Source: Nesterenkonia ebinurensis
Lineage (GTDB): Bacteria; Actinomycetota; Actinomycetes; Actinomycetales; Micrococcaceae
NCBI RefSeq assembly: GCF_008711175.1
Contig: NZ_VWNF01000011.1
Span: 62,001-126,000, forward strand
DNA: 64,000 nt
Direction of reading: 5' to 3'
Below the pieces are notes generated by a model. That model was not told the DNA's origin, searched no databases, and saw nothing but the letters and a program-made list of their open reading frames with translations. Below, one piece after another: positions 50,083 to 64,000 of the stretch (position 1 is the stretch's first letter; every line of letters begins with the position of its first letter). The position numbers and the translations under genes were made by a program.

Positions 50083-50125
50083 CTGAGAGTTCTCTCATCT
50101 TGATCTCACAGTGATCTCACATTAG
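50083..50125 (+). promoter_or_regulatory. Shared 16-bp palindrome plus three 11-bp-spaced boxes before the glycosyltransferase operon
   Basis: CTGAGAGTTCTCTCAT (50083-50098) is the first of three similar 16-bp palindromes in this region. It merges into TCTCA boxes at 50093, 50104 and 50115, exactly 11 bases apart, the layout bound by OmpR/PhoB-type response regulators. It ends 20 bases before the operon's ATG. Confidence 0.65.
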
Positions 50126-50144
50126 CCCAGCAGGCTGGTGCACC

Positions 50145-51446
50145 ATGAGCATCACTGTTGCTATGTACTCCCACGATTCGGTGGGGCTGGGCCACGCCCG
50201 ACGGAACCGCGCCCTGGCCTTTGCACTGGCTGCTGACCTGCCCCGGATCACCGGTGAACGGGTGCGCGGCCTACTGGTAGCTGGCCATCCCGGGGCCACC
50301 GCCGATGCTCTGCCCGAGGGCTGGGACTGGTTGGTGCTGCCCGGATTCACCCGCACCACCAACGGCTATCAGTCGCGCAAGCTGGACGTGAGCACTGAGC
50401 GGCTCTGGCATCTGCGCAGCTCCACGGCCACTGCAGCCTTAGAGGCGATGACCCCAGAGCTGCTGATTGTGGACCGGCATCCCTTCGGCGTGGACAATGA
50501 GCTGCTGCCGGTCCTGGAGACCCTGCAGGGCACCGGCACCCGCTGTGTACTGGGCATGCGAGAGGTGCTGGACACCCCTGCCGCTGCCCGGAACGAATGG
50601 GACATCATCGGCGGGGCAGCCGGAGTGGCCCACTACTACTCCGGACTGTGGATCTATGGAGACCAGGCGGTCTATGACCCAGTGGCCACCGGGGAGATCC
50701 CCCAGGAGCTCTCCCCCATCACCCGGTTCACCGGATATCTGGCCCACGGGCGCCCCGATGACCCGCTGACCGCCTCCTCGATCACCGCTGAGCAGCCCTA
50801 TGTGCTCACTATGGTCGGCGGCGGCGCCGACGGCGGGGCGCTGGGACTTGCAGCAGCCTGGTCCACCGTGCCGGAGGGGCACCGGCACATCATCCTCACC
50901 GGCCCGCAGATGCCGGCAGCCGACCATGACGCCATTCTCGACGCCGTCCGCAGCTCAGGTGCTCCCCGCGGCCAGGTACGGGTTACCCGCTACGCTCCGC
51001 ATGTACCCAAGTTGGTGCGCGATGCCGCGGCAGTCATCTCCATGGGCGGGTACAACTCACTGGCCGAGATCATGGCCACCACCACCCCAGCACTGATCGT
51101 GCCGCGCAGCTCTCGTCGTGCCGAGCAGCGGCTGCGTGCCCACTCTCTGGCTGAGGCAGGGGCCGTGGACGCCCTGAACCCCGAGGACCTGGATACCCGG
51201 CAACTGTCCATCTGGCTGGCCGGCGCCGTGCGCCGGCGCAGCCTGCGCGACAGCATCGATCTGGACGGGCTGACCCGGATCGGTGGCCTAGCCGCCGAAC
51301 AGATTATCGCTGGGCGGGCGGCTGGGCCCCAGACGCCTGGGACCCGTGCAGATTCACCAGAATCTGGGCGAACCACATCAGAGACGTTCTCTTCCCCGTC
51401 CCATCCTGGCCACCCCCATACAGCACCTGTTGAGAGAGTTCGCTGA
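50145..51446 (+). CDS. Glycosyltransferase, GT28/MurG-like fold (COG4671 type)
   Basis: First gene of a six-gene operon. A 433-residue GT-B enzyme: MYSHDSVGLGHARRNRALA at the N-terminus is the Gly-rich acceptor-side loop of the predicted-glycosyltransferase group, ELLIVDRHPFGVDNEL follows, and the C-terminal half has PYVLTMVGGGADGG and YAPHVPKLVRDAAAVISMGGYNSLAEIMATTTPALIVPR, the nucleotide-sugar site. No signal or membrane segment, so cytoplasmic or peripheral. Donor and acceptor unknown. The last ~40 residues are a disordered Ser/Pro tail. Under the shared operator upstream. Confidence 0.85.
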   Translation: MSITVAMYSHDSVGLGHARRNRALAFALAADLPRITGERVRGLLVAGHPGATADALPEGWDWLVLPGFTRTTNGYQSRKLDVSTERLWHLRSSTATAALEAMTPELLIVDRHPFGVDNELLPVLETLQGTGTRCVLGMREVLDTPAAARNEWDIIGGAAGVAHYYSGLWIYGDQAVYDPVATGEIPQELSPITRFTGYLAHGRPDDPLTASSITAEQPYVLTMVGGGADGGALGLAAAWSTVPEGHRHIILTGPQMPAADHDAILDAVRSSGAPRGQVRVTRYAPHVPKLVRDAAAVISMGGYNSLAEIMATTTPALIVPRSSRRAEQRLRAHSLAEAGAVDALNPEDLDTRQLSIWLAGAVRRRSLRDSIDLDGLTRIGGLAAEQIIAGRAAGPQTPGTRADSPESGRTTSETFSSPSHPGHPHTAPVERVR

Positions 51447-51462
51447 AAGAGAGTTGATACCC

Positions 51463-52752
51463 ATGTCCTCTGCACCCGTAATCGGCTACGTGCTCAAAAT
51501 GTACCCCCGATTCTCCGAGACCTTCATCGTCTCCGAGATCCTGGCCCGCGAGGCCGCCGGGGAACGGATTGTGATCTTCAGCCTGCGCACCCCCACTGAT
51601 TCCCGGTTCCATGCAGAGCTGGCCAAGGTCAAAGCCCCGGTGACCCAGATTCCGCGCACCTCCAATGCGGACAAGCTGTGGCAGCGAATCGCAGAGGTGG
51701 CCGAGCTTCCGGACCTGGGTGCCGGTATCCAGCGCATCCTCCCAGAGCTGCTGACCTCCGAGGTGGACGACGCCTTCCAGTCGGTGATGCTGGCAAAAGC
51801 CGCCCGGGAGCACGGTGTCACCCATCTGCACGCCCACTTCGCCTCAGTGGCCACCACTGTGGCCCGCTTGGCCGGGGCGATCAGCGGGTTGCCCTACTCC
51901 TTCACCGCCCATGCCAAGGACATCTTCCACGAGGACGTGGACCAGGGACAGCTCGAACGGAAACTGGCGGAGGCTCATCACGCCATCACCATCAGCCAGT
52001 ACAACCTGGAGGACCTGCGGCGCCGATTCCCCGCCGCCACCCAGAATCTTCACCTGGTGCGCAATGGGCTGGACCTGGAGCGGTTCCCCTACCAACCGCG
52101 CAGCAGCACCCGTCAGGTCCCGCGCATTCTGGGGGTGGGTCGCCTAGTGGAGAAGAAAGGGTTCGGCCTGCTGGTGCAGGCAGTGGCACAGCTGCGCTCC
52201 CGCGGCATCCGGGTCCAGGCAGATATTGCCGGTGATGGGCCGCTGGCCGCAGAGCTGGAGGCTCAGATCGCCGCCCTTGACCTGCAGGACCAGGTGCACC
52301 TGCTGGGACCACGCACCCAGGCGGAGATCAATGAGCTGCTGGGCAGCCATGATGTCTTCGCCGCACCGTTCGTGGTGGGCCCCGACGGCAATGCCGACGG
52401 ACTGCCCACGGTGCTGCTGGAGGCCATGGCACGCGGTATCCGGTGTGTGGCCGCTGATGTCACCGCAGTGGGTGAAGTCACCCGCAGCGCAGAGACCGGC
52501 TGGCTGGTGCCCAGCGGGGATCTCACCGCATTCACCGAGGCCCTGGCCGAAGCCGTGCAGCCAGGCGATCACACCCCGATGACCGATGCCGCCCGCACCC
52601 TGGTGGAGGAGCAGTTCGACAGCAGCCGGCAGGCTATTCAGCTTGCCGAGCTGTGCACTCCCGCCGGCGGGGAGACCCCGCTCGTCTCTCGGCCGGCTGC
52701 CGCGGTGCCGGCCTTCACCCCTCAAGAGCGTAGAGCTGAGGTGACAGCGTGA
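51463..52752 (+). CDS. Glycosyltransferase family 4
   Basis: A 429-residue GT-B enzyme, retaining type. The N-terminal half has YVLKMYPRFSETFIVSEILA, a start typical of exopolysaccharide GT4 enzymes, and HLHAHFASVATTVARL with FTAHAKDIF. The C-terminal half has ILGVGRLVEKKGFGLLVQA, the phosphate-binding region, and ADGLPTVLLEAMARGI, the E-x7-E-like donor motif. The ATG at 51463 is chosen because GAAAGAGAG precedes it; the frame extends upstream into the previous gene. The stop overlaps the next start by 4 bases. Confidence 0.9.
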   Translation: MSSAPVIGYVLKMYPRFSETFIVSEILAREAAGERIVIFSLRTPTDSRFHAELAKVKAPVTQIPRTSNADKLWQRIAEVAELPDLGAGIQRILPELLTSEVDDAFQSVMLAKAAREHGVTHLHAHFASVATTVARLAGAISGLPYSFTAHAKDIFHEDVDQGQLERKLAEAHHAITISQYNLEDLRRRFPAATQNLHLVRNGLDLERFPYQPRSSTRQVPRILGVGRLVEKKGFGLLVQAVAQLRSRGIRVQADIAGDGPLAAELEAQIAALDLQDQVHLLGPRTQAEINELLGSHDVFAAPFVVGPDGNADGLPTVLLEAMARGIRCVAADVTAVGEVTRSAETGWLVPSGDLTAFTEALAEAVQPGDHTPMTDAARTLVEEQFDSSRQAIQLAELCTPAGGETPLVSRPAAAVPAFTPQERRAEVTA

Positions 52753-53966
52753 ATATCGCATACTTCCTGGCCGATCCGGGGATCGGGATCTTCGGCACCA
52801 AGGGCGCCAGCGTCCATGCCCAGGAGATGATCCGGGCCTTGCGTGCCCTGGGACATGAGGTGACCGTCTTCGCCACCAAACGCGGCAATAAGCACGGTGA
52901 TCCGTCAAGTGAATACGTTCCGGCGGACCTGAAGGATCTGCCGGTGTTCGTGGTCCCGGTGGCTGGAGCCAAAGGCGCTGCCGCCCGTGAGCAGGCCACC
53001 GCCCGGGCCTCGGCGCGAATGGCCGAACTGGCCGCTGAGGAATCCTATGATCTGGCCTATGAACGCTATTCGCTGTTCTCCACGGCCGGCACCGCGCTCA
53101 AAGACCGTCAGCGCATGCCTCTGGTAGTGGAGGTCAACGCCCCGCTGCTGGCCGAACAGTCCGCCCACCGGCAGCTGCACGATACACAGACCGCCATGGA
53201 ATCCACCCTGCGCACCTTTGGCGCAGCAGATGTGTTGAGCTGTGTCTCCACTCCGGTCGCAGACTGGGCACGATGCGTCAGCGCCGGCACTGACCCTCGC
53301 ATCATCGTCACACCCAACGGGGTGAACGTCGAGCGATTCGGGCGACAACGGACGACGACGCCGTCGTCGAGCCGGCCCTTCACCGTGGGCTTCCTGGGCA
53401 CGCTCAAACCATGGCACGGCACCGAGTTCCTGCTGCAGGCAGTGGCCGCCGGCTCCGGGCTGGCTGGCATCCGGGTGGAGATCCTCGGTGACGGCCCGCA
53501 GCGCACCGAGCTGGAGAGCCTCGCTGTTCAGCTGGGCATCGCCGAACGGGTGGTCTTCCACGGTGCGGTGGCGCCCGAACAGGTTCCCGCCGCGCTGTCA
53601 GCCTGGGATGCCGGCGTCGCCCCCTACCCGGTCCCGCAGCAGCAGGGTGAGCACTACTTCTCCCCGTTGAAGGTCTATGAGTATCTGGCCGCCGGCCTGC
53701 CGGTGGTCGCCTCGGCCACCGGAGAGATTCCCGAGATCATCGAGCACGGCAGAACCGGGCTGCTGGTGCCCGGATCAGACCCGGACGCGCTGGCTGAGGC
53801 CCTGGGCCGGCTGGCTGCAGACCCGCAGCTGAGGCAGCAGATGGGCGCTGCTGCCCGCGCTGAGGCCCAGCAGCGGCACAGCTGGCAGACCCGCGCCGCA
53901 GAGCTGCTGGAGGCTGCCGGGACTGCCCTGCCCTCCCCGGTACCTGTCTCGGAGGTGATCTGCTGA
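52749..53966 (+). CDS. Glycosyltransferase family 4
   Basis: A 405-residue GT4 enzyme, the third transferase of the operon. FGTKGASVHAQEMIRALRALGHEVTVF is the N-terminal Rossmann start, TPNGVNVERF the interdomain segment, GFLGTLKPWHGTEFLLQAV the donor-phosphate region and FSPLKVYEYLAAGLPVVAS the acidic donor motif region. The GTG start lies in GTGA overlapping the previous stop. Its own stop shares a base with the ABC transporter start, so translation is coupled. It presumably adds the next sugar to the same acceptor. Confidence 0.9.
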   Translation: MNIAYFLADPGIGIFGTKGASVHAQEMIRALRALGHEVTVFATKRGNKHGDPSSEYVPADLKDLPVFVVPVAGAKGAAAREQATARASARMAELAAEESYDLAYERYSLFSTAGTALKDRQRMPLVVEVNAPLLAEQSAHRQLHDTQTAMESTLRTFGAADVLSCVSTPVADWARCVSAGTDPRIIVTPNGVNVERFGRQRTTTPSSSRPFTVGFLGTLKPWHGTEFLLQAVAAGSGLAGIRVEILGDGPQRTELESLAVQLGIAERVVFHGAVAPEQVPAALSAWDAGVAPYPVPQQQGEHYFSPLKVYEYLAAGLPVVASATGEIPEIIEHGRTGLLVPGSDPDALAEALGRLAADPQLRQQMGAAARAEAQQRHSWQTRAAELLEAAGTALPSPVPVSEVIC

Positions 53967-55783
53967 TGGGCAAGAAATCCTCCTCGCTGAACCGTCAGGC
54001 TCTGTTCCGTACACTGCGGATGGTCACCCCGTTCGTCAAGCAGCATAAGCTGCTGGTGGGCCTAGGGATGCTGGCTCTGATCGGCGATGTGCTCTTCCGC
54101 ATCCTGGAGCCCTGGCCGGTGAAGTTCGCCGTGGACGCCGTCTCCGACGCCCTAGGTGCGGAGCTGGAGAGCACCGCTGACGGTGCGGAGAATGTGACTG
54201 GAGTGATCGTCTTCTGGTCGGTGGCGCTGGCCGGGATTGTGGCTGGCCGCGCCGTCTGCAACTACGGCTCCACCATCGCCTTCGCCAAGACTGGCGTGAA
54301 GGTGGCTGCCAGACTGCGCACCAAGGTTTTCGAGCACATCCAGTCGCTCTCGCTGCGCTACCACTCGAAGGCCAGCATCGGGGATACCTCCCAGCGCCTG
54401 GTGGGCGATATGGGCCGGCTGCAGGAGGTTGCCGTCACCGCCGGGCTGCCGATGATCGGCAACCTGCTGACCCTGATCGCCCTGTTCGTGGTGGTCATTG
54501 TGCTCAACCCGGTGCTGGCCCTGGTGGTCACCGCCACCGCCGGCGGCTATCTGTTGGCCTCTCGGGCACTGAGCCCCAAAATCACTACTGCTTCCCGGGC
54601 CACCCGCAAGGGCGAGGGACAGCTGGTGGGTGATGCCGCCGAAGCCCTGGCTGCCATCCGTGTGGTGCAGGCCTACGGACTGGAGGACACTGTGGCGGCC
54701 GGCTTCGCCGCTGGAAACAAGAAGGCGCTGAAGGCCGGCATCAAGGCCCGCAAGCTCGCCGCCCGGCTGGAGCGCTCCACCGATCTCTTTGTGGGCATCG
54801 CCACCGCAGTGGTGCTGGGCTTCGGCGGCTGGCAGGTGCTGGCCGGGGTGATGACTCCCGGGGATATGGTGCTGTTTCTGATGTACCTGAAGATCGCGAT
54901 GAAGCCGCTGCGCGATATGGCCAAGTACACCGGCCGGATCGCCAGGGCCACCGCCTCCGGTGAGCGCATCGCGGATCTGCTCGATGAGCCGGTGGAGGTC
55001 ACCGATCCCAAGGACTCGATGCCAATGCGGCAGGTCACCGGTGAACTGTGCTTCTGGCAGGTCAGTGCCGCCGATGGCCGCGGCGTACCGCTCTTCGAAG
55101 AGCTCAGCCTGCAGATCCCGGCCGGTCAGCGGGTGGGACTGCTGGGACCCTCCGGTGCCGGGAAGTCCACGCTGACCGGGTATCTGCTGCGACTGGCCGA
55201 TCCTGACTCCGGAGCGGTGCTGGTAGACGGCTACTCCACCCGCAGTGTGGCCAAGGCCGAGCTGCGCGGCAATATTGCGGTGCTGCTGCAGGAGTCGGTG
55301 CTGTTCTCCACCACGATTGCCGAGAACATCCGCTACGGTCGCCAGGAGGCCACCGATGAGGAAGTGGTCAACGCTGCCCGGCGCGCCGGGGCCCATGAGT
55401 TCATCATGAAGCTTCCTGAGGGCTATGAGACGGTGCTGGGCAACCGTGGTGACACCCTTTCCGGCGGGCAGCGGCAGCGGATCGCCATCGCCCGCGCCCT
55501 GGTCAGGGATGCTCCGATCGTGCTGCTGGACGAGCCCACCTCAGGCCTTGACCCGGCCTCCCGGGCCACGGTGGAGGCCTCCATCCGGGAGCTGACCGCC
55601 GGACGCACCACCATCGCCATCACCCACGATCTGTCCATGATCCAAGGTCTGGATCGGGTGCTGTGGCTGGAGCAGGGCCGGATTCTGGAGGACGGCGCCC
55701 CGCAGCAGCTGCTGGGCGATCCGGACTCCAGGCTGGCCCAGTGGGCTCACAGTCAGCGTCGCACGATGGAGGCAGCACTGTGA
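53966..55783 (+). CDS. ABC exporter, fused membrane and ATPase domains
   Basis: Half-transporter of 605 residues. The membrane domain (about residues 1-330) has six helices; the ATPase has Walker A LLGPSGAGKSTLTG (about residue 391), Q-loop VLLQESVLFSTT, signature [15 protein letters not shown], Walker B IVLLDEPTSGLD and switch His in AITHD. This is the type that flips lipids, glycolipids or peptides outward, and its place after three glycosyltransferases suggests it exports their lipid-linked product; the substrate is inference. It would act as a homodimer. The stop is 4 bases inside the next gene. Confidence 0.93.
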   Translation: MGKKSSSLNRQALFRTLRMVTPFVKQHKLLVGLGMLALIGDVLFRILEPWPVKFAVDAVSDALGAELESTADGAENVTGVIVFWSVALAGIVAGRAVCNYGSTIAFAKTGVKVAARLRTKVFEHIQSLSLRYHSKASIGDTSQRLVGDMGRLQEVAVTAGLPMIGNLLTLIALFVVVIVLNPVLALVVTATAGGYLLASRALSPKITTASRATRKGEGQLVGDAAEALAAIRVVQAYGLEDTVAAGFAAGNKKALKAGIKARKLAARLERSTDLFVGIATAVVLGFGGWQVLAGVMTPGDMVLFLMYLKIAMKPLRDMAKYTGRIARATASGERIADLLDEPVEVTDPKDSMPMRQVTGELCFWQVSAADGRGVPLFEELSLQIPAGQRVGLLGPSGAGKSTLTGYLLRLADPDSGAVLVDGYSTRSVAKAELRGNIAVLLQESVLFSTTIAENIRYGRQEATDEEVVNAARRAGAHEFIMKLPEGYETVLGNRGDTLSGGQRQRIAIARALVRDAPIVLLDEPTSGLDPASRATVEASIRELTAGRTTIAITHDLSMIQGLDRVLWLEQGRILEDGAPQQLLGDPDSRLAQWAHSQRRTMEAAL

Positions 55784-56955
55784 CGCCTCTGCCTACTCCA
55801 GCCCAGGCGGATGCCGTGGCAGCCTCCGCGGTAAAACTGAACCGTGCCGTTGAGGTGATTGACCCGGGCCTGCTCTCGGAGCTGCTGCAGCGCCCGGTGA
55901 ACATCACCCATGCTCGGATCAAGCCCGGCCATTCTGTGGTGGTGGCACATGCCAGCCAGGACGGTGAGCACGGCTGGACCATGCTCACCAATGACCGGGA
56001 CAAGTTCTGCAAGGCGCAGCAGCGCGCCGAGAGCTTCGGCCAGCAGCTGCAGATCCACCAGGACGACGACGCCGCCGGGTACCTCTACAGCGGCTCGCTG
56101 TGGTCGGACCCCGCCCTTGCCAAGCAGCTCCACGATGCACGCAGCACGCTCAACGAGATCGAGGACCGCCAAGTGCGCTGGGAGATCCTGCGCTACAACC
56201 CGCGCCGGCGCCTGGTGGCGGTGGTGGATGCCGGACACAGCCCCAAAGTGGTGCGGGTGGCTGCCGGAGGCGCCGATAGGGTGCTGGCCACTGCCGCGCG
56301 CTGGCGCAGCCTGGGGCTGCCGGTGACCAATGTGGCTCCGCTGGGCCACCGACAGTCTGCGACTATCGCCCCGCTCTGGGGGGCGGGTGACCTTGCCCAG
56401 CAGCCCTACGAACCGGCTGCCCAGACCGCTGGAGAGGCTGTAGCCCGGCTGCACAACGCCCCGCGGGACCAGTCCTGCGGTGACCGCCGGTATGCCGATC
56501 CGGCAGAGGCTGCTGCGGCCCTCAGCCGGATCGCCCCCTGGCTGGAAGACCGTGCCGAGCAGCTGGCGCTGCGCTGCACCGCCCAGCTGAAGCCGACTCT
56601 GGGCTCCACCACCGCAGAGATCCACGGCGACCTCTCCCCCGACCAGATCATCCTGGCCGCAGAGGGCAGTCACAAGGTGCGGATCATTGATCTGGACCGG
56701 ACCGGCTGCGGACACCCGATGCGCGATATCGGCTCCTGGGTGGCCACCTGTCGGCATGCCGGGACCTCTGAGCTGATTGACGCGTTCCTGGCCGGCTACG
56801 CCACCGACGCCCGGCTTGATCCCACTGACCTCGATGCATGGGAGGCCTATGCGCACCTGGCCCGAGCCACGGATTTCTTCCGTCACCGGGAACCGGACTG
56901 GCCACAGCACACCATACGCGCACTGAACCTGGCCGAGGAGGCACTGAACCGATGA
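55780..56955 (+). CDS. Phosphotransferase (APH/choline-kinase fold), first of the operon
   Basis: A 391-residue protein of the aminoglycoside phosphotransferase superfamily. IHGDLSPDQIIL (about residues 281-292) is the catalytic loop (HGD, here followed by L-x-P-D-Q) and VRIIDLDRTGCGHP holds the metal-binding Asp. RYNPRRRLVAVVDAG may correspond to the nucleotide-binding strands. The family phosphorylates small hydroxyl compounds such as choline, sugars or antibiotics. GGAGG lies seven bases before the GTG start at 55780, which overlaps the ABC gene; the frame is open further upstream. Together with the next gene it forms a coupled kinase-like pair. Confidence 0.85.
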   Translation: MTPLPTPAQADAVAASAVKLNRAVEVIDPGLLSELLQRPVNITHARIKPGHSVVVAHASQDGEHGWTMLTNDRDKFCKAQQRAESFGQQLQIHQDDDAAGYLYSGSLWSDPALAKQLHDARSTLNEIEDRQVRWEILRYNPRRRLVAVVDAGHSPKVVRVAAGGADRVLATAARWRSLGLPVTNVAPLGHRQSATIAPLWGAGDLAQQPYEPAAQTAGEAVARLHNAPRDQSCGDRRYADPAEAAAALSRIAPWLEDRAEQLALRCTAQLKPTLGSTTAEIHGDLSPDQIILAAEGSHKVRIIDLDRTGCGHPMRDIGSWVATCRHAGTSELIDAFLAGYATDARLDPTDLDAWEAYAHLARATDFFRHREPDWPQHTIRALNLAEEALNR

Positions 56956-57827
56956 AGACCCTGATCGCAGACCCCGCACTTCCGCATCTTCAGGAGCTGC
57001 TGAACTCCGGTGGAACCCTGGTCTCCCACCGGCCAGGCAAACGTGCCATGGTGCGGTTGGACGCCCCAGACGGCCCCCGGTTCATCAAGGTGGTCAGACC
57101 CGGCAAGGCGGCCAAGATCCTTGACGGGATACGCCGCGCCGAACCTTTCAACGGCCCCTTCCGCACCCCGGTGATGCTGGAGAGCTCTGACTCCACTGTG
57201 ACCTTCGCCCAGCTGGAGGGAATCAGTCTGCACACCCCGGAAGGGCTGAGCCCCGCTCAGTGGGCCCAATCCTGGACCCAAGTGGCCGAGGCTCTGGCCC
57301 GGGTCATCAGTGCCGGGATCCCCCAGGGGGCTTCCGCGCCCCTGGTCCACGGTACCGAGGCGGAGATCAGGGTGCTGCACCAGTGGTTCCAGCGCACCGC
57401 TGAACAGCTTGCCCGCCCTGAGCGCACCGAGCAGCAGCTGGGCAGGGTCAGCACACAGCTGCAGCGCATCAGTGCGAATCGTCTGGTCCCGGCGCACCGG
57501 GATCTGCACGATAAGCAGCTGCTCTGGTCCTCGCAGGCCGGTCCAGGACTGCTGGATGTGGATACCGCCTGCGCTGCCGACCCTGCGTTGGATCTGGGCA
57601 ATCTGCGGGCTCATGCTGTGCTGCGCCGGCTGCAGGGACTATGGTCAGCCGGCGAGGCCGAGACGGTGCAGTTCTGCATCGACCAAACCGCTGAGGAGAC
57701 CGAAGTGGCCCGGGAGTCGGTGGCCGTCTATGAGCGTGCCGCTCTGCTGCGGCTGAGCATGGTCTATGCGATCCGCCCTCACCCTCAGCGCACCTCCACA
57801 GCCCAGCAGCTGTCTCAGCTCATTTGA
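56952..57827 (+). CDS. Phosphotransferase-like protein, second of the operon
   Basis: A 291-residue shorter APH-fold protein and the last gene of the operon. AHRDLHDKQLLW (about residues 179-190) is the catalytic loop with the HGD changed to HRD, as in eukaryotic-type kinases, and GLLDVDTACAADPALDLGN has the metal-binding Asp. MVRLDAPDGPRFIKVVRPGKA holds a candidate ATP-binding Lys. The ATGA start overlaps the previous stop. The 3' end overlaps the converging membrane-protein gene by 8 bases. Whether it phosphorylates the same substrate as its partner is unknown. Confidence 0.82.
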   Translation: MKTLIADPALPHLQELLNSGGTLVSHRPGKRAMVRLDAPDGPRFIKVVRPGKAAKILDGIRRAEPFNGPFRTPVMLESSDSTVTFAQLEGISLHTPEGLSPAQWAQSWTQVAEALARVISAGIPQGASAPLVHGTEAEIRVLHQWFQRTAEQLARPERTEQQLGRVSTQLQRISANRLVPAHRDLHDKQLLWSSQAGPGLLDVDTACAADPALDLGNLRAHAVLRRLQGLWSAGEAETVQFCIDQTAEETEVARESVAVYERAALLRLSMVYAIRPHPQRTSTAQQLSQLI

Positions 57828-58227
57828 GCTGGTCCCCGTCTAACCATTGCTGGGTGGGTTTGACGAACAGCAGGATCAGTGCGACAGCGGCCGGCAGCAG
57901 GAAGATCAGCCCGGTAACCACTGCCCCGCCGGCGAAGAAGCTGAAGGAGAGCACCACCAGCAGCAGCTGCAGCACCATGGCAGGGGTTCGTGCCGCAGGG
58001 GTGCCATGAAAAATCTGGAAGCCCAGCAGCACCAGAATCACTCCGGAGAGGATGAACAGCACAGTCAGCGCGATCGTGCCGGCAGCATCAAGCACCTGAG
58101 CGTCCTGGCCGAAGACTGAGGCCAGTGTGCCGAAGATCACTGCTGACCCCTGCAGGAACAGCACCACATAGATAACCCACACCGCGGCAGGCCGGGGCGG
58201 CCGGGCAGAGGAAGCAGTCTCAGACAT
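57820..58227 (-). CDS. Four-helix membrane protein of unknown function
   Basis: A 135-residue protein with hydrophobic segments at about 15-37, 49-70, 77-95 and 98-122. No family recognised; similar small membrane proteins are common in Micrococcaceae. It overlaps the phosphotransferase gene end by 8 bases and its 5' side faces the shared operator at 58287, so it may belong to the same regulon. Confidence 0.7.
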   Translation of the reverse strand: MSETASSARPPRPAAVWVIYVVLFLQGSAVIFGTLASVFGQDAQVLDAAGTIALTVLFILSGVILVLLGFQIFHGTPAARTPAMVLQLLLVVLSFSFFAGGAVVTGLIFLLPAAVALILLFVKPTQQWLDGDQLK

Positions 58228-58286
58228 GAGGCCTATTCAACCATCCTGGCGTGCTATACCGGGAACAGGATAAACCCGGCCCAAAA

Positions 58287-58327
58287 ATGAGAGAGCTCTC
58301 ATGCCGGTTTCCTGGTCCTCTCACATT
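58287..58327. promoter_or_regulatory. Shared 16-bp palindrome plus 11-bp-spaced boxes, second site
   Basis: ATGAGAGAGCTCTCAT (58287-58302), with TCTCAT at 58297 and TCTCACATT at 58319, 22 bases (two 11-bp steps) apart. It lies between the divergent membrane-protein and secreted-protein genes. The last box overlaps the -35 position for a TAAGAT -10 box at 58348-58353 that serves the secreted-protein gene. Confidence 0.65.
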
Positions 58328-58347
58328 CGCCGGCCAGAGTAGGGGCG

Positions 58348-58353
58348 TAAGAT
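58348..58353 (+). promoter_or_regulatory. -10 box of the secreted Ser/Pro-rich protein gene
   Basis: TAAGAT (TANNNT) ~35 bases before the ATG. Its -35 region at 58325-58330 coincides with the third TCTCA box, as expected for activation by a bound response regulator. Confidence 0.45.
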
Positions 58354-58388
58354 CACAGCAGAGAAGTCCAAGGAGTACTGAAAGAACT

Positions 58389-58799
58389 ATGAGCCGACAG
58401 ACCACCTGGGTCATCACCGGAGCGCTGAGCATCGTTGCCCTCGGCGGCGGCACCGCCCTGGCATCCACCTTGGGGCAGAGCACCGATCAGGACTTCGGCC
58501 CCGCCGTGGAGGTCACCACCGAACCGGTGCCCACCGACTCCCCCAGCTCATCACCCACAGCCACGGCCTCGCCGAGCACCTCACCAAGCCCCAGCACGAC
58601 GCCGTCCCCCTCCCCAGAGAGCAGTCCCAGCGCCTCTCCCAGCCAACAGAGCACTCAAGCACCACCGGCCCAGCAGCAAACCAGCCAGGCTCCGCCGCAG
58701 CAGGTCAACCCAGCACCTCCGCAGTCCTGGAGCTCCCCGAGCTCCTGGTCCCCGGCCTCAGTCTCCAGCTGGAGCTCTCCCAGCTCGCCTTCCAGCTGA
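58389..58799 (+). CDS. Secreted or envelope Ser/Pro/Thr-rich protein
   Basis: A 136-residue protein with a signal-like N-terminus (TTWVITGALSIVALGGGTALAS) and then almost entirely Ser, Pro, Thr, Gln and Ala, including repeated SPS and QQ steps and a WSS/SPSS-rich end with several tryptophans. No folded domain seen. Such sequences act as wall-spanning stalks or are heavily O-glycosylated. The ATG at 58389 is chosen because a signal peptide follows and AGGAG is near; the longer frame upstream is not protein-like. Controlled by the shared operator, which links it to the glycosyltransferase operon. Confidence 0.75.
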   Translation: MSRQTTWVITGALSIVALGGGTALASTLGQSTDQDFGPAVEVTTEPVPTDSPSSSPTATASPSTSPSPSTTPSPSPESSPSASPSQQSTQAPPAQQQTSQAPPQQVNPAPPQSWSSPSSWSPASVSSWSSPSSPSS

Positions 58800-58910
58800 G
58801 CAGCGCCGGCTCCGGGACACCGTGCAGGCCGCCGCCCCTCTTGGCCGGCAAAGCCCTGCCGGCCTTCGCATCCGAAGTCGGCGCTTCCGCTACGCGTCGC
58901 GCCTCACCAA

Positions 58911-58954
58911 CGAAGAAGAGGTCCGGTTCCATCAGGAACCGGACCTCTTCTTCG
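58911..58954. terminator. Bidirectional terminator between secreted-protein gene and whiB1
   Basis: A perfect 20-bp stem (58911-58930 with 58935-58954) with a 4-base loop ATCA, among the strongest hairpins in the window. It stands between the converging genes and would stop transcription in both directions. It lacks a long T-run. Confidence 0.75.
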
Positions 58955-58968
58955 TACTTGACTAAGAG

Positions 58969-59217
58969 TCAGCCTGCTCGCCGCGCTCTTGCTGCGCGAC
59001 GCTTCAGGGCACGTCGTTCGTCCTCGCTCATGCCGCCCCACACCCCCGAGTCCTGGCCGGTGTCCAGGGCCCACTGCAGGCAGGTGTCCATCACCGGGCA
59101 GCGCCGACAGACGCTCTTGGCCTCTTCAATCTGAAGCAGAGCGGGGCCGGTGTTGCCGACGGGGAAGAAGAGCTCGGGATCCTTGTCCAAACAAGCTGCT
59201 CGGCTGCGCCAATCCAT
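58969..59217 (-). CDS. whiB1: WhiB-family transcription factor, WhiB1 type
   Basis: Small 4Fe-4S regulator of 82 residues that binds the housekeeping sigma factor and is sensitive to nitric oxide. Cysteines at 9, 37, 40 and 46 hold the cluster; GVWGG is the turn motif; ERRALKRRAARARRA is the basic DNA-binding end. MDWRSRAACLDKDPELFFPV is nearly the WhiB1 start. The ATG at 59217 gives this start and AAGGAG is ~11 bases upstream. In mycobacteria whiB1 is next to pdtaS; here a phosphotransferase gene and a two-component system stand between them. Confidence 0.95.
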   Translation of the reverse strand: MDWRSRAACLDKDPELFFPVGNTGPALLQIEEAKSVCRRCPVMDTCLQWALDTGQDSGVWGGMSEDERRALKRRAARARRAG

Positions 59218-59357
59218 GGCGATCACTACTCCTTGGCCTGATCTCAGGGGCAATCAGGTGGTGCGTCTGGGATGTTCAGTAATCTAGGCTGACATGTTAC
59301 GGCCAGGCAAACAAGACCTCTCAAAGGATTAATTTTGACAAATTGATGTGCGATTCA

Positions 59358-60587
59358 TCACATGTTTGGAGAATGGATGTGATGAGGGACGGAAATGATT
59401 CCGCAGCCCAGGATGTGCTCGGCCGCCCCCAGGTAATAGTCCAGCTGTTCCGGGCCTCGTGCCCCCGGTGCCAGAGCCATCATCGATGCTGCGGTCCGCG
59501 CCACCAGGTCTGCAGGGTCATAAGCCCCCATGGTGACCGCGCACCAGAGATCATGGACCAGCTGGGGCACTGTGCTGTACCCGGCTGCGTCGTAGCTGGG
59601 CAGGGCCAGCAGATGGGCGAACATCATCGTCACGTCATCGATCCGGTGGCCGGGGCCCACCGTGTCACCGTCGATCAGTGCCGCCGGAGACGCGGCATCA
59701 TCAGTGAGGAAGAGATTGGCTGGATGGAAGTCACCGTGGGTGGGCTCCAGCGGCCCGGTGTGGGGGCGCAGCTGAGCCTGGATCCGGTGCATTAAGGAGT
59801 GCACGCGGTCAGGATGGGCCCCACCGACGATCAACGCCTGACCAAAGCTGGCGAACCGTTGCGGCGGGGCAGTACGGGCCGGCAACTGCAGAGCCTGCGC
59901 TGAGAGGCTGTCCAAGGCACGCAGAATCACCTGCGGATCGATTCGAATCCCGGGCAGCGGAGAACTGGGCAGATAGAGCAGATCGGTCAACGTCACCCCT
60001 GGGGCCTGATCCACAGCCAGAATCCCGTCGCCCAGATCTGCGGTGGAGGGAATCAGCGAGCATGCCAGGTGACGGGCCAACAGCTCCGGCATCTTCTGCG
60101 GACGCACCACTTTGAGAAAGAGCCTGCGGTAGCCCAACTCCGATACCGCCACCACCCGATAGACAGCCCGGCGCAGCGGGCGCAGCACCACCAGCTCCGT
60201 CTGCTCGATACGAACCCGGTGCTGAAGCAACGGTGCCAGACGTTGGGCCAGCTGGGCATGATCTTCGACCACCCGCAGCCCGGGCAGCTCCGGATCGGTG
60301 GGGTGAGCCCAGATGTGCAGACTGCCCGCCGCTGACTCACAACGCACGGCTCCAAGCTGGTCACGCTGCTCATCCGTGAGCTGCCGAGTGCTGGCCACCA
60401 GAGTCAGCTGGTGGCCAGAGGCCAGCACCTGGAACCGGGCGGAACTCTCAGCATGCGGCCTGGAATAGACCCGATCCAGCGACCAGTCCTCTAGGCAAAG
60501 CCCTGACGAGCCCAGAGCAGTCTGCAGCAGCACCTCCATCTGCGCACTGCGCAGCAGCCGCTCAACCTCCCAATTCACAATCTCCAT
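59358..60587 (-). CDS. Phosphotransferase (APH fold), third paralogue
   Basis: A 409-residue APH-superfamily protein. THGDFHPANLF (about residues 284-294) is the catalytic loop with the full HGD, and AALIDGDTVGPGHRIDD has the metal-binding Asp. The upstream part has LRPLRRAVYRVV and FLKVVRP with a candidate ATP-binding Lys. Length and strand pattern resemble the 55780 protein, so all three phosphotransferases may act in one pathway. The ATG at 60587 is 29 bases from the shared palindrome, which also faces the sensor-kinase gene on the other side. Confidence 0.85.
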   Translation of the reverse strand: MEIVNWEVERLLRSAQMEVLLQTALGSSGLCLEDWSLDRVYSRPHAESSARFQVLASGHQLTLVASTRQLTDEQRDQLGAVRCESAAGSLHIWAHPTDPELPGLRVVEDHAQLAQRLAPLLQHRVRIEQTELVVLRPLRRAVYRVVAVSELGYRRLFLKVVRPQKMPELLARHLACSLIPSTADLGDGILAVDQAPGVTLTDLLYLPSSPLPGIRIDPQVILRALDSLSAQALQLPARTAPPQRFASFGQALIVGGAHPDRVHSLMHRIQAQLRPHTGPLEPTHGDFHPANLFLTDDAASPAALIDGDTVGPGHRIDDVTMMFAHLLALPSYDAAGYSTVPQLVHDLWCAVTMGAYDPADLVARTAASMMALAPGARGPEQLDYYLGAAEHILGCGIISVPHHIHSPNM

Positions 60588-60615
60588 TGTGACAATGAAT
60601 CCGCCGGTTCCGGGG

Positions 60616-60631
60616 ATGAGAAAACTCTCAT
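60616..60631. promoter_or_regulatory. Shared 16-bp palindrome, third site
   Basis: ATGAGAAAACTCTCAT in the 90-base region between the phosphotransferase (start 60587) and sensor-kinase (start 60678) genes. It would cover the -35 region of the former. A further half-site, ATGAGA, is at 60661-60666. Confidence 0.6.
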
Positions 60632-60677
60632 GGCTTTTCGGGCCGCTCAGCCCTGAACTAATGAGAAACTGAGGCGC

Positions 60678-62231
60678 GTGAGTACAACAGGCGCTTCGGC
60701 GCAGCTGGGGCGCAGAGGGCGCCGTCGTGCCTTCTCCGCGCTCTCAGCGCGCTCGCGCATCCTGGCCGCGGTGGTCGGCCTGGCAGCCCTGGCACTGACG
60801 GTCTGCGGCTATACGGTCTACTATCTGCAGCAACTTCAGGTGGAGGACCGGATCAATGCTGAGCTGGAGGCCGATGCCCGGGAGTTCGTGGAACTCAGCT
60901 CTGATGGCGTTGATCCCGAGACCGGTGAAAGCTTCGCCACTCCTTCCGATCTGGTCCGCACTGCGATGATGCGGATCATCCCCACCCGGAACGAGGGGGC
61001 TGTGGGCATGGTGGACGGAGAGGTCTACTGGACTTCACCGGTGGCCGATATCGACTTGGAGGAGGACCGCGAGCTGCGTACAGTCCTAGCGGACTATGCC
61101 GTCGCCGACCGGGTCCAGTTCACCACCATCACCACAGAGCAGGCCACCTACCGCGCAGTGGTGGTGCCGGTGCATGCCGGAGCTGAGGTAGAGGACACCC
61201 AGGGCAATTTTCACGAGGTGGCCGCCTTTGTGATGGCTTACGACCTCTCAGCTGAGAAAGCCGTGTTCTCGGGCATCTTTCTGACCTACGCCGGGGTCGC
61301 CGTCTTCTCGCTGATCGTAGTGGCCCTGGTGGGCTGGCTGGTGGCCGGGCGGCTGCTGCACCCCATCCGGCTGCTGGCCGAGGCCTCACGGCGGATCACC
61401 CGGGAGGATCTCACCGAGCGGATCCCGGTGGCCGGGCACGATGATGTGGCTGAGATGGCCCGCTCAGTCAACGAGATGCTCAACCGCCTGGAGGGCGCCT
61501 TCACCGCACAGGAGCAGCTGATCAATGATGTCAGCCATGAACTGCGCACCCCGCTGACCATACTGCGTGGGCATCTGGAGGTGCTCGACGTCGGAGACCG
61601 TGACGATGTGGTGTCCACCCGGGAGCTGACCCTGGACGAGCTGAAGCGGATGAACCGCGTGGTGGACGATCTCACCACCCTGGCACAGGCCGACCGGCCC
61701 GACTTCGTGCAGCCGGCCGAGGTGGAGCTCGGCACACTCACCGATGAGGTCTATGACAAGATCCTCGCCCTGGGCGAGCGGCGCTGGCTGATCTCCGAAC
61801 GCGCCGAGGGCACCGCGGTGCTGGACCGGGAGCGGATCACCCAGGCACTGCTGCAGCTGGCTGCCAATGCGGTGAAGTTCTCCCCGCCCGGCTCGGTGGT
61901 CTCCCTGGGCTCCCGGGTGGAGCGGGACGACGTCGTACTCTCTCTGCGTGACCAGGGCGAAGGAATACCCGAGCAGGACCAGGAGCGGATTTTCGACCGT
62001 TTCCAGCGCAGCGACACTTCCAAACCGGGATCAGGTCTGGGGCTGCCGATCGTCAAAGCCATCGCCGCAGCCCATTCGGGATCCGTGCAGGTTGTCTCCC
62101 AGACAGGTGCAGGAACCACCTTTAGCCTCATTCTGCCTGGTGCCGCTGCTGATGACGGGCAGCACCCGGTCCCGGCGCTGAGCGCCGATGCCCATACCCT
62201 TGAGAACACCTCAGAGGAGAACCGTCCGTGA
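60678..62231 (+). CDS. HAMP-domain sensor histidine kinase
   Basis: Membrane sensor of 517 residues, partner of the next gene. Two helices (about residues 28-50 and 197-222) enclose a ~145-residue acidic extracellular sensor; HAMP follows. The phosphoacceptor is H287 in VSHELRTPLTIL. The ATPase has NAVKFSPPG (N box), DQGEGIPEQ (G1), IFDRFQRS (F) and GSGLGLPIVK (G2). GTG start with GAGG close by. GTGA overlaps the response-regulator start. It faces a shared palindrome upstream, so it may autoregulate. Signal unknown, probably envelope-related. Confidence 0.93.
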   Translation: MSTTGASAQLGRRGRRRAFSALSARSRILAAVVGLAALALTVCGYTVYYLQQLQVEDRINAELEADAREFVELSSDGVDPETGESFATPSDLVRTAMMRIIPTRNEGAVGMVDGEVYWTSPVADIDLEEDRELRTVLADYAVADRVQFTTITTEQATYRAVVVPVHAGAEVEDTQGNFHEVAAFVMAYDLSAEKAVFSGIFLTYAGVAVFSLIVVALVGWLVAGRLLHPIRLLAEASRRITREDLTERIPVAGHDDVAEMARSVNEMLNRLEGAFTAQEQLINDVSHELRTPLTILRGHLEVLDVGDRDDVVSTRELTLDELKRMNRVVDDLTTLAQADRPDFVQPAEVELGTLTDEVYDKILALGERRWLISERAEGTAVLDRERITQALLQLAANAVKFSPPGSVVSLGSRVERDDVVLSLRDQGEGIPEQDQERIFDRFQRSDTSKPGSGLGLPIVKAIAAAHSGSVQVVSQTGAGTTFSLILPGAAADDGQHPVPALSADAHTLENTSEENRP

Positions 62232-62887
62232 CCAATATCCTGATCATCGAGGATGAGGACCGCATCGCCTCATTTGTGGAGAAAGGCCTGCGCTCAGCCG
62301 GGTACGCCGCAGTCCGCGCCGCCACTGCCAGTGAGGGCTTCGAGTTCGCGCTGAACACCTCTGTGGACTTGGCCGTGCTGGACCTGGGACTGCCCGATGA
62401 GGACGGGCTGCGGTTGCTTTCCCGGCTGCGAGCCAGGAAATTCGCCGCCCCCGTGATCATTCTCACCGCCCGCGACACTCCCGCCGATACGGTCAAAGGC
62501 CTGGAATCCGGGGCCGATGACTATATGGCCAAGCCGTTCAGCATCGATGAGCTGCTGGCCAGGATCAGACTGCGGCTGCGCGGCGGGTCAGCCGATGAGC
62601 CCACCACCCTGAGCGCCGGGCGGCTCACCCTGGACCTGCATTCACGCAAAGTGCGGGTCGGTGAGACCGAGCATGAGCTCTCCTCCAGGGAGTTCACCCT
62701 GGCTGAGACCTTCATGCGCCACCCCGGGCAGGTCCTCTCCCGCGAGCAGCTGTTGGAGATGGTCTGGGGCTACAGCTTTGACCCCGGCTCTAACCTGGTG
62801 GACGTCTATGTGCGCTACCTGCGGGCCAAGATCGGCGCAGAGGCCATCAAGACCATCCGTGGCGTGGGCTATCGCCTAGACGTTTAG
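62228..62887 (+). CDS. OmpR-family response regulator
   Basis: A 219-residue regulator: receiver domain with acidic pocket E8-D9, phosphoacceptor D52 in VLDLGLP, T80 and K102 (AKPF), and a winged-helix DNA-binding domain with LSSREFTLAETFMRHPGQVLSREQLLEMVW and YVRYLRAKIG. Starts GTG within the kinase stop. OmpR-type domains bind tandem sites 10-11 bp apart, matching the TCTCA boxes at 50093 and 58297, so it is the prime candidate for controlling the nearby glycosyltransferase module. That link is inference. Confidence 0.93.
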   Translation: MTNILIIEDEDRIASFVEKGLRSAGYAAVRAATASEGFEFALNTSVDLAVLDLGLPDEDGLRLLSRLRARKFAAPVIILTARDTPADTVKGLESGADDYMAKPFSIDELLARIRLRLRGGSADEPTTLSAGRLTLDLHSRKVRVGETEHELSSREFTLAETFMRHPGQVLSREQLLEMVWGYSFDPGSNLVDVYVRYLRAKIGAEAIKTIRGVGYRLDV

Positions 62888-62956: not shown

Positions 62957-64000
62957 TTAGGGCAGGATCGGGGCGCGGAGGATGACTCGGGTGCCAGGGC
63001 GGCCCGGATTCTCACCCTCACCGGACAGCCATTGGATGGACCCGGAGAGCTCTCCGCGGACTAGGGTCTTCACAATCTGCAGGCCCAGCCCGGGCTCCCA
63101 GTCCTGTTCCGGGAGGCCCGCCCCGTCGTCGTCCAGCTCCATCTCCAGCCGCTGGCGGCCGGCCGCGTCAGTCTGCCGGTGTGCCCTCAGCGAGACCCGC
63201 AGGCTCTCCTCGGTCGGCACTCCGGGCAGCCCGTGCTCGACCGCATTGGCCACGATCTCGGTGATCACCAAGGCCAGCGGAGTCACCATATCCGGCGGCA
63301 GCTGGCCAAAACTGCCCACCAGCTCGGTCTGTGCGCTGCGCTCGGACTGAGCCATCTCAGCGGCCAGACGCAGCTGACGGCGCATAAGCTCATCCACGTC
63401 CACACTCTCCTCCAGCCCCTGGGAGAGCGAATCGTGGACCATCGCGATGGTCTCCACCCGGCGCATGGCCCGGCGCAGTCCCGAGCGGCCCTCTTCGGAG
63501 TCCATCCGCCGCGACTGCATGCGCAGCAGTGCCGAAACAGTCTGCAGGTTGTTCTTCACCCGGTGGTGAATCTCCTTGATGGTGGCGTCTTTGCTCATCA
63601 GCTGCTTCTCGCGGCGGCGCAGTTCGGTGACGTCCCGGCAGAGCACCAAAGCGGCGAAGCGCTCGCCCCCGCGGCGCAACGGTATCGAGCGCAGGGTCAC
63701 TGCCGCTCCATGGGCCTCCAGCTCAGCCCGCATGGCCCGCCGGCCGGTGAGCATCAGCGGCTGGGACTCATCCACCGCCACCCCGGTGGCCCGCTGCAGC
63801 TCAGCCCCGATCCCAGCCAGGGACCGCCCTTCCAGGGTCTCCTGGACCCCCAGCCGCAGCAGGGCAGAGACCGCATTGGGACTGGCGAAGGTGATCTTCC
63901 CCTCAGTGTCCAGCCTCAGCAGCCCGTCACCCACCCGAGGGGCACCGGAGTAGCCGGTGAATTCCTGGGCGGTATCCGGCCAGATCCCCTCCTGCGCCAT
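62957..64000 (-). CDS. pdtaS: Sensor histidine kinase of the PdtaS type (5' partial)
   Basis: 347 residues visible. PRVGDGLLRLDTEGKITFAS begins a PAS-like domain, KEIHHRVKNNLQTVSALLRMQ is the HisKA_2 phosphoacceptor region, and ITEIVANAVEHGL with DDDGAGLPEQ forms the ATPase. This is the soluble kinase that signals to the antiterminator PdtaR. In homologues a GAF domain of ~150 residues precedes the part seen here, so the methionine at the window edge is probably internal and the true start lies beyond it. Next to whiB1 in other genomes. Confidence 0.92.
   Translation of the reverse strand: MAQEGIWPDTAQEFTGYSGAPRVGDGLLRLDTEGKITFASPNAVSALLRLGVQETLEGRSLAGIGAELQRATGVAVDESQPLMLTGRRAMRAELEAHGAAVTLRSIPLRRGGERFAALVLCRDVTELRRREKQLMSKDATIKEIHHRVKNNLQTVSALLRMQSRRMDSEEGRSGLRRAMRRVETIAMVHDSLSQGLEESVDVDELMRRQLRLAAEMAQSERSAQTELVGSFGQLPPDMVTPLALVITEIVANAVEHGLPGVPTEESLRVSLRAHRQTDAAGRQRLEMELDDDGAGLPEQDWEPGLGLQIVKTLVRGELSGSIQWLSGEGENPGRPGTRVILRAPILP

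Follow-up and report, generated by a model that had tools for sequence, protein, structure and literature searches.

Response regulators (RRs) of the OmpR family are described as binding direct repeats with a period of 11 bp (PMC4832192; PMC13189361), and the pho box usually lies near the -10 region, in the place of the -35 region (PMC4971064). In a study of PhoP, all known OmpR/PhoB sites are said to be direct repeats (PMC4832192). Regulators of the CusR type are reported to use palindromes, that of CusR itself being quoted (PMC11195947). The locus considered here, in a stretch of 64,000 nucleotides from Nesterenkonia ebinurensis (contig NZ_VWNF01000011.1, positions 62,001 to 126,000; hereafter the window), appears to unite the two types of site. 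Three 16-bp palindromes in the window are very probably operators of the OmpR/PhoB-type RR encoded at 62228, the partner of the sensor kinase encoded at 60678; in its phosphorylated form this RR would bind TCTCAY half-sites and activate transcription in the manner of PhoB. For this system we infer binding, its dependence on phosphorylation, activation, and a role in making and exporting an envelope saccharide.

Comparison with CusR illustrates how closely the geometry of the sites agrees. The CusR box of Escherichia coli K-12, ATGACA-ATTT-TGTCAT, has the same 6-N4-6 inverted arrangement as ATGAGA-N4-TCTCAT in the window, and in the K-12 cusR-cusC intergenic region (L199:2013-2039) a third half-site, TGTCAC, follows 11 bp past the palindrome, a composite layout like the one described below. 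The RR is 42% identical to CusR but scores under the cut-off of the CusR/CopR/CzcR family TIGR01387 (189.4 bits against 279.2), so that it may work like CusR on DNA while falling outside the curated CusR subfamily. The half-site is TCTCA here and TGTCA in the CusR/CopR systems, and the probable targets here are envelope saccharide genes, whereas those of CusR and CopR serve metal efflux. With PhoB/PhoP-type regulators the system shares tandem half-sites of 11-bp period, but its operator also has a conserved inverted half-site. MtrA and CutR are, like this RR, regulators of actinobacterial two-component systems. The direct repeats of MtrA are typically separated by 5 or 6 nt, and its site in electrophoretic mobility shift assays, GtnAcC-n5-GTnAcn (PMC13189361), is not TCTCAY-N5; neither is the CutR motif, TAWATAAA, which ruled out CutR as a namesake for the RR at 62228 (PMC12802291). 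Scores also fell short for MtrA (NF040689, 180.4 against a cut-off of 300), for PhoB (TIGR02154, 178.1 against 296.2) and, in the case of the kinase, for TIGR01386 (202 against 293). Among open-licence papers, no study of the 60678/62228 two-component system was found, nor any linking TCTCAT to a response regulator in actinobacteria.

The first-pass annotation of the window had reported the three palindromes, at 50083, 58287 and 60616, as marks of a local regulon without further comparable sites. The letters at these positions are as reported, and all three sites are intergenic relative to the genes judged real, overlapping spurious open reading frames (ORFs) being ignored. With up to two mismatches, ATGAGAGNNCTCTCAT matches only these three places in the window; in 100 shuffles of the window the mean was 0.31 matches, with a maximum of 2 per shuffle. 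The pattern TGAGA-N0..6-TCTCA likewise finds the same three sites and no other, a number reached by 2 of 100 shuffles. Across the 3.74-Mb genome (3,739,891 bases), TGAGARNNYTCTCA with at most one mismatch gives 25 places and the reversed control 15, so that a clear excess is limited to the exact class. This exact form occurs at five places, namely the three window sites, C2:42477 and C50:57606. The looser TGAGANNNNTCTCAY adds C49:49417, making six distinct places among the matches listed, with 2 and 0 for the reversed control on the two strands. The site at C2:42477 (L004) was set aside as a regulon site, since it falls inside an acyltransferase-like ORF.

The palindromes are real and promoter-located, but the functional unit is larger than 16 bp: the predicted operator is an 11-bp-phased array of TCTCAY half-sites, with the palindrome as its upstream part. 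Before both the glycosyltransferase operon and the exported-protein gene, an inverted half-site is followed by three TCTCAY-like sites, one per 11 bp, then by 10 bp and a -10-like hexamer. The half-sites at 50093, 50104 and 50115 form the only exact TCTCAY-N5-TCTCAY pairs in the genome, and in relatives they occupy the same positions, -52, -41 and -30 from the start codon. At up to three mismatches the composite pattern finds just these two window promoters in the whole genome, against 0 and 1 matches for the reversed control. Tandem matches with one mismatch at other genomic places (31/33, against 9 and 9 for the reversed control) were not used; two that were opened (L195, L196) lie in ORFs.

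The phasing was examined in 18 loci, the window and L093-L109, by counting exact TCTCAY pairs on one strand at spacings of 7-45 bp. The 11,919 bp of target promoters contain 42 pairs at 11 bp, 25 at 22, 1 at 17 and 5 at 45, and the 324,783 bp outside them contain none at 11 or 22 bp and 3 at other distances; the related sequences are not independent, so these counts overstate the number of events, and the location of the pairs holds for these 18 loci. Inverted half-sites keep the same phase, their commonest gaps being 37, 26, 15 and 48 at the glycosyltransferase promoter and 4, 26 and 15 at the exported-protein promoter, all of the form 4+11n; the few gaps outside this series involve scattered single half-sites. 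An array of similar form, TCTCAT/TCTCAC/TCTCAC/CTTCAC followed by 10 bp and TATCTT, was observed at L198:4009 in a genome of another genus (G030).

The distance between the array and the putative -10 element is as regular as the phasing. Among exported-protein promoters, which read ATGAGA-N4-TCTCAT with half-sites 2 and 3, which often match at 4 or 5 of 6 positions, at +11 and +22, a hexamer with A at position 2 and T at position 6 stands at a gap of 10 in 18/18, against at most 6/18 for any other gap from 0 to 30; these comprise 16 promoters from 15 genus genomes and 2 from other genera, anchored on the palindrome. The glycosyltransferase promoters have such a hexamer at gap 10 in 14/15 (at most 3/15 for other gaps from 0 to 19). 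There the start codon follows after only about 8 nt, which suggests leaderless transcripts. The end of the array, about 10 bp before -10, thus has the position of an activator that replaces the -35 element (class II), and with the last subunit in the -35 position activation is expected, as for PhoB. The opposite effect, in which the RR represses because its array blocks the promoter, seems rather unlikely. In its favor are the abutment of the array on the -10 element and the overlap of ATGAGA with the likely -10 region of the sensor-kinase promoter; against it, exactly 10 bp separate the end of the last half-site from -10, roughly the placement of a PhoB-type activator, for which a distance of 10 bp is known.

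Conservation among relatives separates the parts of the operator. RR orthologues of at least 80% identity occur in 16 of 30 genus genomes, the source genome counted. The palindrome NTGAGANNNNTCTCAY lies upstream of the exported-protein gene in all 16, and the site between the APH-like gene and the sensor kinase matches ATGAGA-N4-TCTCAT exactly in eight, with one mismatch in seven and with two in one. At the glycosyltransferase operon, the N4 palindrome is confined to the source genome among 15 RR-bearing genus genomes (it recurs in G033, outside the genus); in the remaining 14 the inverted half-site stands 15 bp away (14 in G024) rather than 4, about one helical turn more. TCTCAY is found there at -52 in 15/15 promoters and in exact form at -41 in 14/15 and at -30 in 8/15, with a 1-nt shift in G008. 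The glycosyltransferase operon of these 14 relatives thus retains the direct repeats but lacks the 16-bp palindrome. The promoter starts come from tblastn matches or ORFs, several for the sensor kinase and for the exported protein (L171/L173) being approximate; exported-protein and kinase promoters were anchored on the palindrome for alignment, and its presence was judged in a separate upstream comparison. G012, in which the gene is split by contig ends, was left out of the glycosyltransferase alignment, and G008 and G002 out of the exported-protein alignment. Arrays extend beyond the orthologue group, at exported-protein promoters in G042 and G033 and at glycosyltransferase promoters in G003 (four repeats), G020, G002 and G033, with weaker ones in G032 and G047. 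In G006 (L099:10483-11257) the exported-protein gene is duplicated in tandem, each copy with its own palindromic operator.

These comparisons bear on what the sites belong to. A near-perfect 16-bp palindrome is typical of dimeric repressors, and a similar one, TGTGAGAGCGCTCTCACA, which resembles such an operator, stands before an ABC substrate-binding-protein gene at C50:57606; the sites might accordingly be operators of a conventional repressor of LacI, MarR, TetR or GntR type unrelated to the RR. A dimeric repressor would account neither for tandem repeats at 11 bp nor for their constant 10-bp spacing from the -10 element, nor for the conservation of direct repeats without the palindrome at the relatives' glycosyltransferase operon, and this alternative is very improbable. 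The C50:57606 palindrome (L005:1501-1514) is itself intergenic, upstream of the substrate-binding-protein-like gene and between it and an FHA-like gene (names read from the sequence). It was dropped as a regulon member, having by eye no tandem array and a GCGC core, TGAGAGCGCTCTCA, that among the matches listed also occurs in genomes lacking the RR (G010, G011, G023 and others). It probably behaves as a separate site, the operator of another regulator, which we take to be of LacI type.

The second palindrome had been assigned in part to the small membrane-protein gene at 57820, and this assignment does not survive the comparison. The gene adjoins the site in the window but lies beyond the APH-like gene in 7/7 genomes of the clade with about 61-64% kinase identity, and the site stays with the exported-protein gene.

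Assignment of the sites to the RR at 62228 relies on its distribution and on its DNA-binding domain. The protein matches Pfam PF00072 (E=2.6e-25) and PF00486 (E=2e-25), the domain pair of the OmpR/PhoB type, and the predicted operator is built of direct repeats with the 10-11 bp period of such regulators. Its gene is adjacent to that of the kinase and the two reading frames overlap, as in a two-component system. The first glycosyltransferase (E<=1e-60) was found in 23 of 58 genomes, and every one of these encodes an RR at least about 52% identical; the identity is at least 80% in 16 of them, the others being G032, G033, G047, G052, G003, G020 and G002. Looser RR thresholds were applied to 20 and then to 3 chosen genomes, so that absence elsewhere refers to E<=1e-78. 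Within the genus, an RR of at least 80% accompanies 16 of 19 genomes with the glycosyltransferase and 0 of 11 without it; among those lacking the operon, G029 has an RR of 56%, and G009 a related RR in two frames. In G009 (C50:22460-23124; L243/L244) the related RR, downstream of the kinase gene, is itself split over two frames, through either a pseudogene or an assembly error. The recognition helix in this family lies within the motif SN[LV]VDVY[VI]RYLR, which is present in 24 of 25 aligned RRs (G036 has G for R) and in those of G002 and G009.

Another OmpR-type regulator of the same genome, such as MtrA, or several of them, might bind the sites instead, as the genome encodes five OmpR-type RRs at E<=1e-25 and one MtrA half-site of Streptomyces venezuelae is TCTCAAG (PMC13189361). 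Among these, the GSNLVDVYVRYLR helix is peculiar to the local RR, the other four differing there, and across genomes the presence of sites largely tracks this RR and its close relatives; a different OmpR-type binder has only a slim chance. From co-distribution and the recognition helix, the RR at 62228, suggested in the first-pass annotation, remains the best candidate binder, but site and adjacent RR do not correspond one to one, as G002 illustrates.

The first-pass reading of the sites as marks of a regulon is mostly borne out, but this regulon, compact and with few, promoter-located sites, is not strictly local. The palindrome at C49:49417 (L188:4018) lies upstream of a gene for a PepSY-domain lipoprotein, on another contig, and this gene is likely an additional target. 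The exact palindrome precedes it in three genomes, the source genome (G000), G007 and G024, and a variant with one mismatch does so in G015 and G027 (further PepSY loci are L197:4015, L209, L212, L222 and L225). In G002, G003, G009, G020 and G029 the gene is preceded by between two and four tandem repeats, with a gap of 10 to an A2/T6 hexamer (5/5); the proteins of these five are 40-56% identical and were compared by identity, without assignment as orthologues. Five RR-lacking genomes (G004, G005, G011, G013, G023) have neither array nor palindrome at the gene, and the same is true of six RR-bearing genomes of the clade at about 61-64%.

Several observations weigh against the assignment of all these sites to the one RR. 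The third site, at 60616, has no clean tandem array. The TCTCAAG half-site is listed before mtrA itself in S. venezuelae (PMC13189361), so that TCTCA alone is not unique to the RR at 62228. Genomes of relatives carry further exact TCTCAY-N5-TCTCAY pairs, 0-6 each (reversed control 0-1), of which only some have been placed. Two genomes of other genera, G036 and G042, encode RRs of 61-64% but lack the operon at the threshold used, and G052 has the operon and a 59% RR, with no array found at its glycosyltransferase promoter. At the PepSY gene, G010, without an RR at E<=1e-60, has yet a one-mismatch palindrome. G002 keeps a kinase gene close to those for the exported and APH-like proteins (L110) but no RR adjacent to it, a 52% RR being encoded elsewhere; the exported-protein site of G002 is eroded (two mismatches at best), yet its glycosyltransferase promoter keeps two repeats. 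G002 had been considered a clean case of joint loss of regulator and site, and was dropped when the 52% RR was found just past the first threshold.

In the mechanism proposed for the RR at 62228, the kinase would phosphorylate its partner, enabling it to bind TCTCAY half-sites. The head-to-head pair ATGAGA-N4-TCTCAT would anchor the RR at the upstream end of the array, and further subunits would join in tandem, one per 11 bp, toward the promoter. Before the exported-protein gene and the glycosyltransferase operon, the array would place its final subunit 10 bp upstream of the -10 element, in the position of -35, and this subunit would activate as PhoB does. At the divergent promoters of the APH-like gene and the sensor kinase, where the palindrome alone is well kept, weaker autoregulation is suggested. 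The conserved ATGAGAAACT before the sensor kinase may be a further half-site or an extended -10 element.

A broader generalization is more tentative: composite operators might possibly be shared by a whole branch of OmpR-type regulators that extends from E. coli CusR to the RR at 62228, operators in which twofold-symmetric, head-to-head nucleation is joined to a tandem array running to the promoter. In eight of the 15 glycosyltransferase promoters the composite operator would have grown into two facing arrays, with three exact half-sites facing left (-95, -84, -73) and two or three facing right. At those eight loci the gene upstream runs in the same direction, so that the left-facing half-sites serve no divergent gene; such facing arrays may wrap or loop the DNA. 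If true, the composite operator would reconcile in one promoter the symmetric receiver dimer with tandem DNA binding.

The switch is probably of a familiar bacterial type, its binding layout being unusually regular and well conserved, and the locus represents what is apparently a small envelope regulon of a single, apparently unstudied two-component system with a composite operator. A predicted binding code at the level of sequence and a short list of candidate targets are now available for a system for which no study was found among the papers searched. The operators form a natural series in which inverted and tandem half-sites vary in number and lie mostly on one face of the helix, well suited to the study of how symmetric and tandem binding are combined by OmpR-type regulators. 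What the targets suggest is an envelope saccharide, regulated and exported, in Nesterenkonia and in some related actinobacteria. Relationships were compared by alignment and identity, with no tree built.

Table 1. Positions in the window of the putative operator elements and of the genes they may serve
Feature	Position	Strand	Basis
Palindrome 1, CTGAGA-N4-TCTCAT, upstream end of the glycosyltransferase-operon operator	50083..50098		sequence, window scan
Three tandem half-sites, TCTCAT-N5-TCTCAC-N5-TCTCAC, 11-bp period (50093, 50104, 50115)	50093..50120	+	sequence
-10-like hexamer CAGGCT, 10 bp past the last half-site, 8 nt before ATG	50131..50136	+	aligned promoters
Putative target operon, coding for three glycosyltransferases, an MsbA-type ABC exporter and two APH-fold kinase-like proteins	50145..57827	+	profile matches
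Palindrome 2, ATGAGA-N4-TCTCAT	58287..58302		sequence, window scan
Array TCTCAT-N5-TTTCCT-N5-TCTCAC, middle copy degenerate, exported-protein promoter	58297..58324	+	sequence, relatives
-10-like hexamer CAGAGT, 10 bp past the array	58335..58340	+	aligned promoters
Putative target: small Ser/Pro/Thr-rich protein, 136 aa, hydrophobic N-terminus	58389..58799	+	sequence; no Pfam/NCBIfam match
APH-fold kinase-like gene (third APH-fold protein), divergent from the sensor kinase	59358..60587	-	profile match
Palindrome 3, ATGAGA-N4-TCTCAT, in the APH-like/sensor-kinase intergenic region	60616..60631		sequence, window scan, relatives
Conserved ATGAGAAACT before the sensor kinase	60661..60670	+	aligned relatives
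Sensor histidine kinase (HAMP, HisKA, HATPase_c)	60678..62231	+	profile match
OmpR/PhoB-type RR (Response_reg + Trans_reg_C), proposed binder	62228..62887	+	profile matches

Gene spacing suggests that the stretch from 50145 to 57827 is one operon. Its glycosyltransferases are of the Pfam GT28-C and GT4 types, and its MsbA-type exporter falls below every NCBIfam cut-off; the family content points to an exported, kinase-modified envelope saccharide as the product. The gene at 57820 encodes a small hydrophobic membrane protein without a Pfam or NCBIfam match, and the product of 58389 is presumably exported. The closest named relatives of the sensor kinase are those of N. alkaliphila (86%), N. muleiensis (76%) and N. 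salmonea (73%). After the regulator, the window from 62957 to 64000 encodes a histidine kinase with PAS and HisKA_2/HWE-type domains; no site of the operator motif lies near it within the window, and it is kept near the RR in several relatives.

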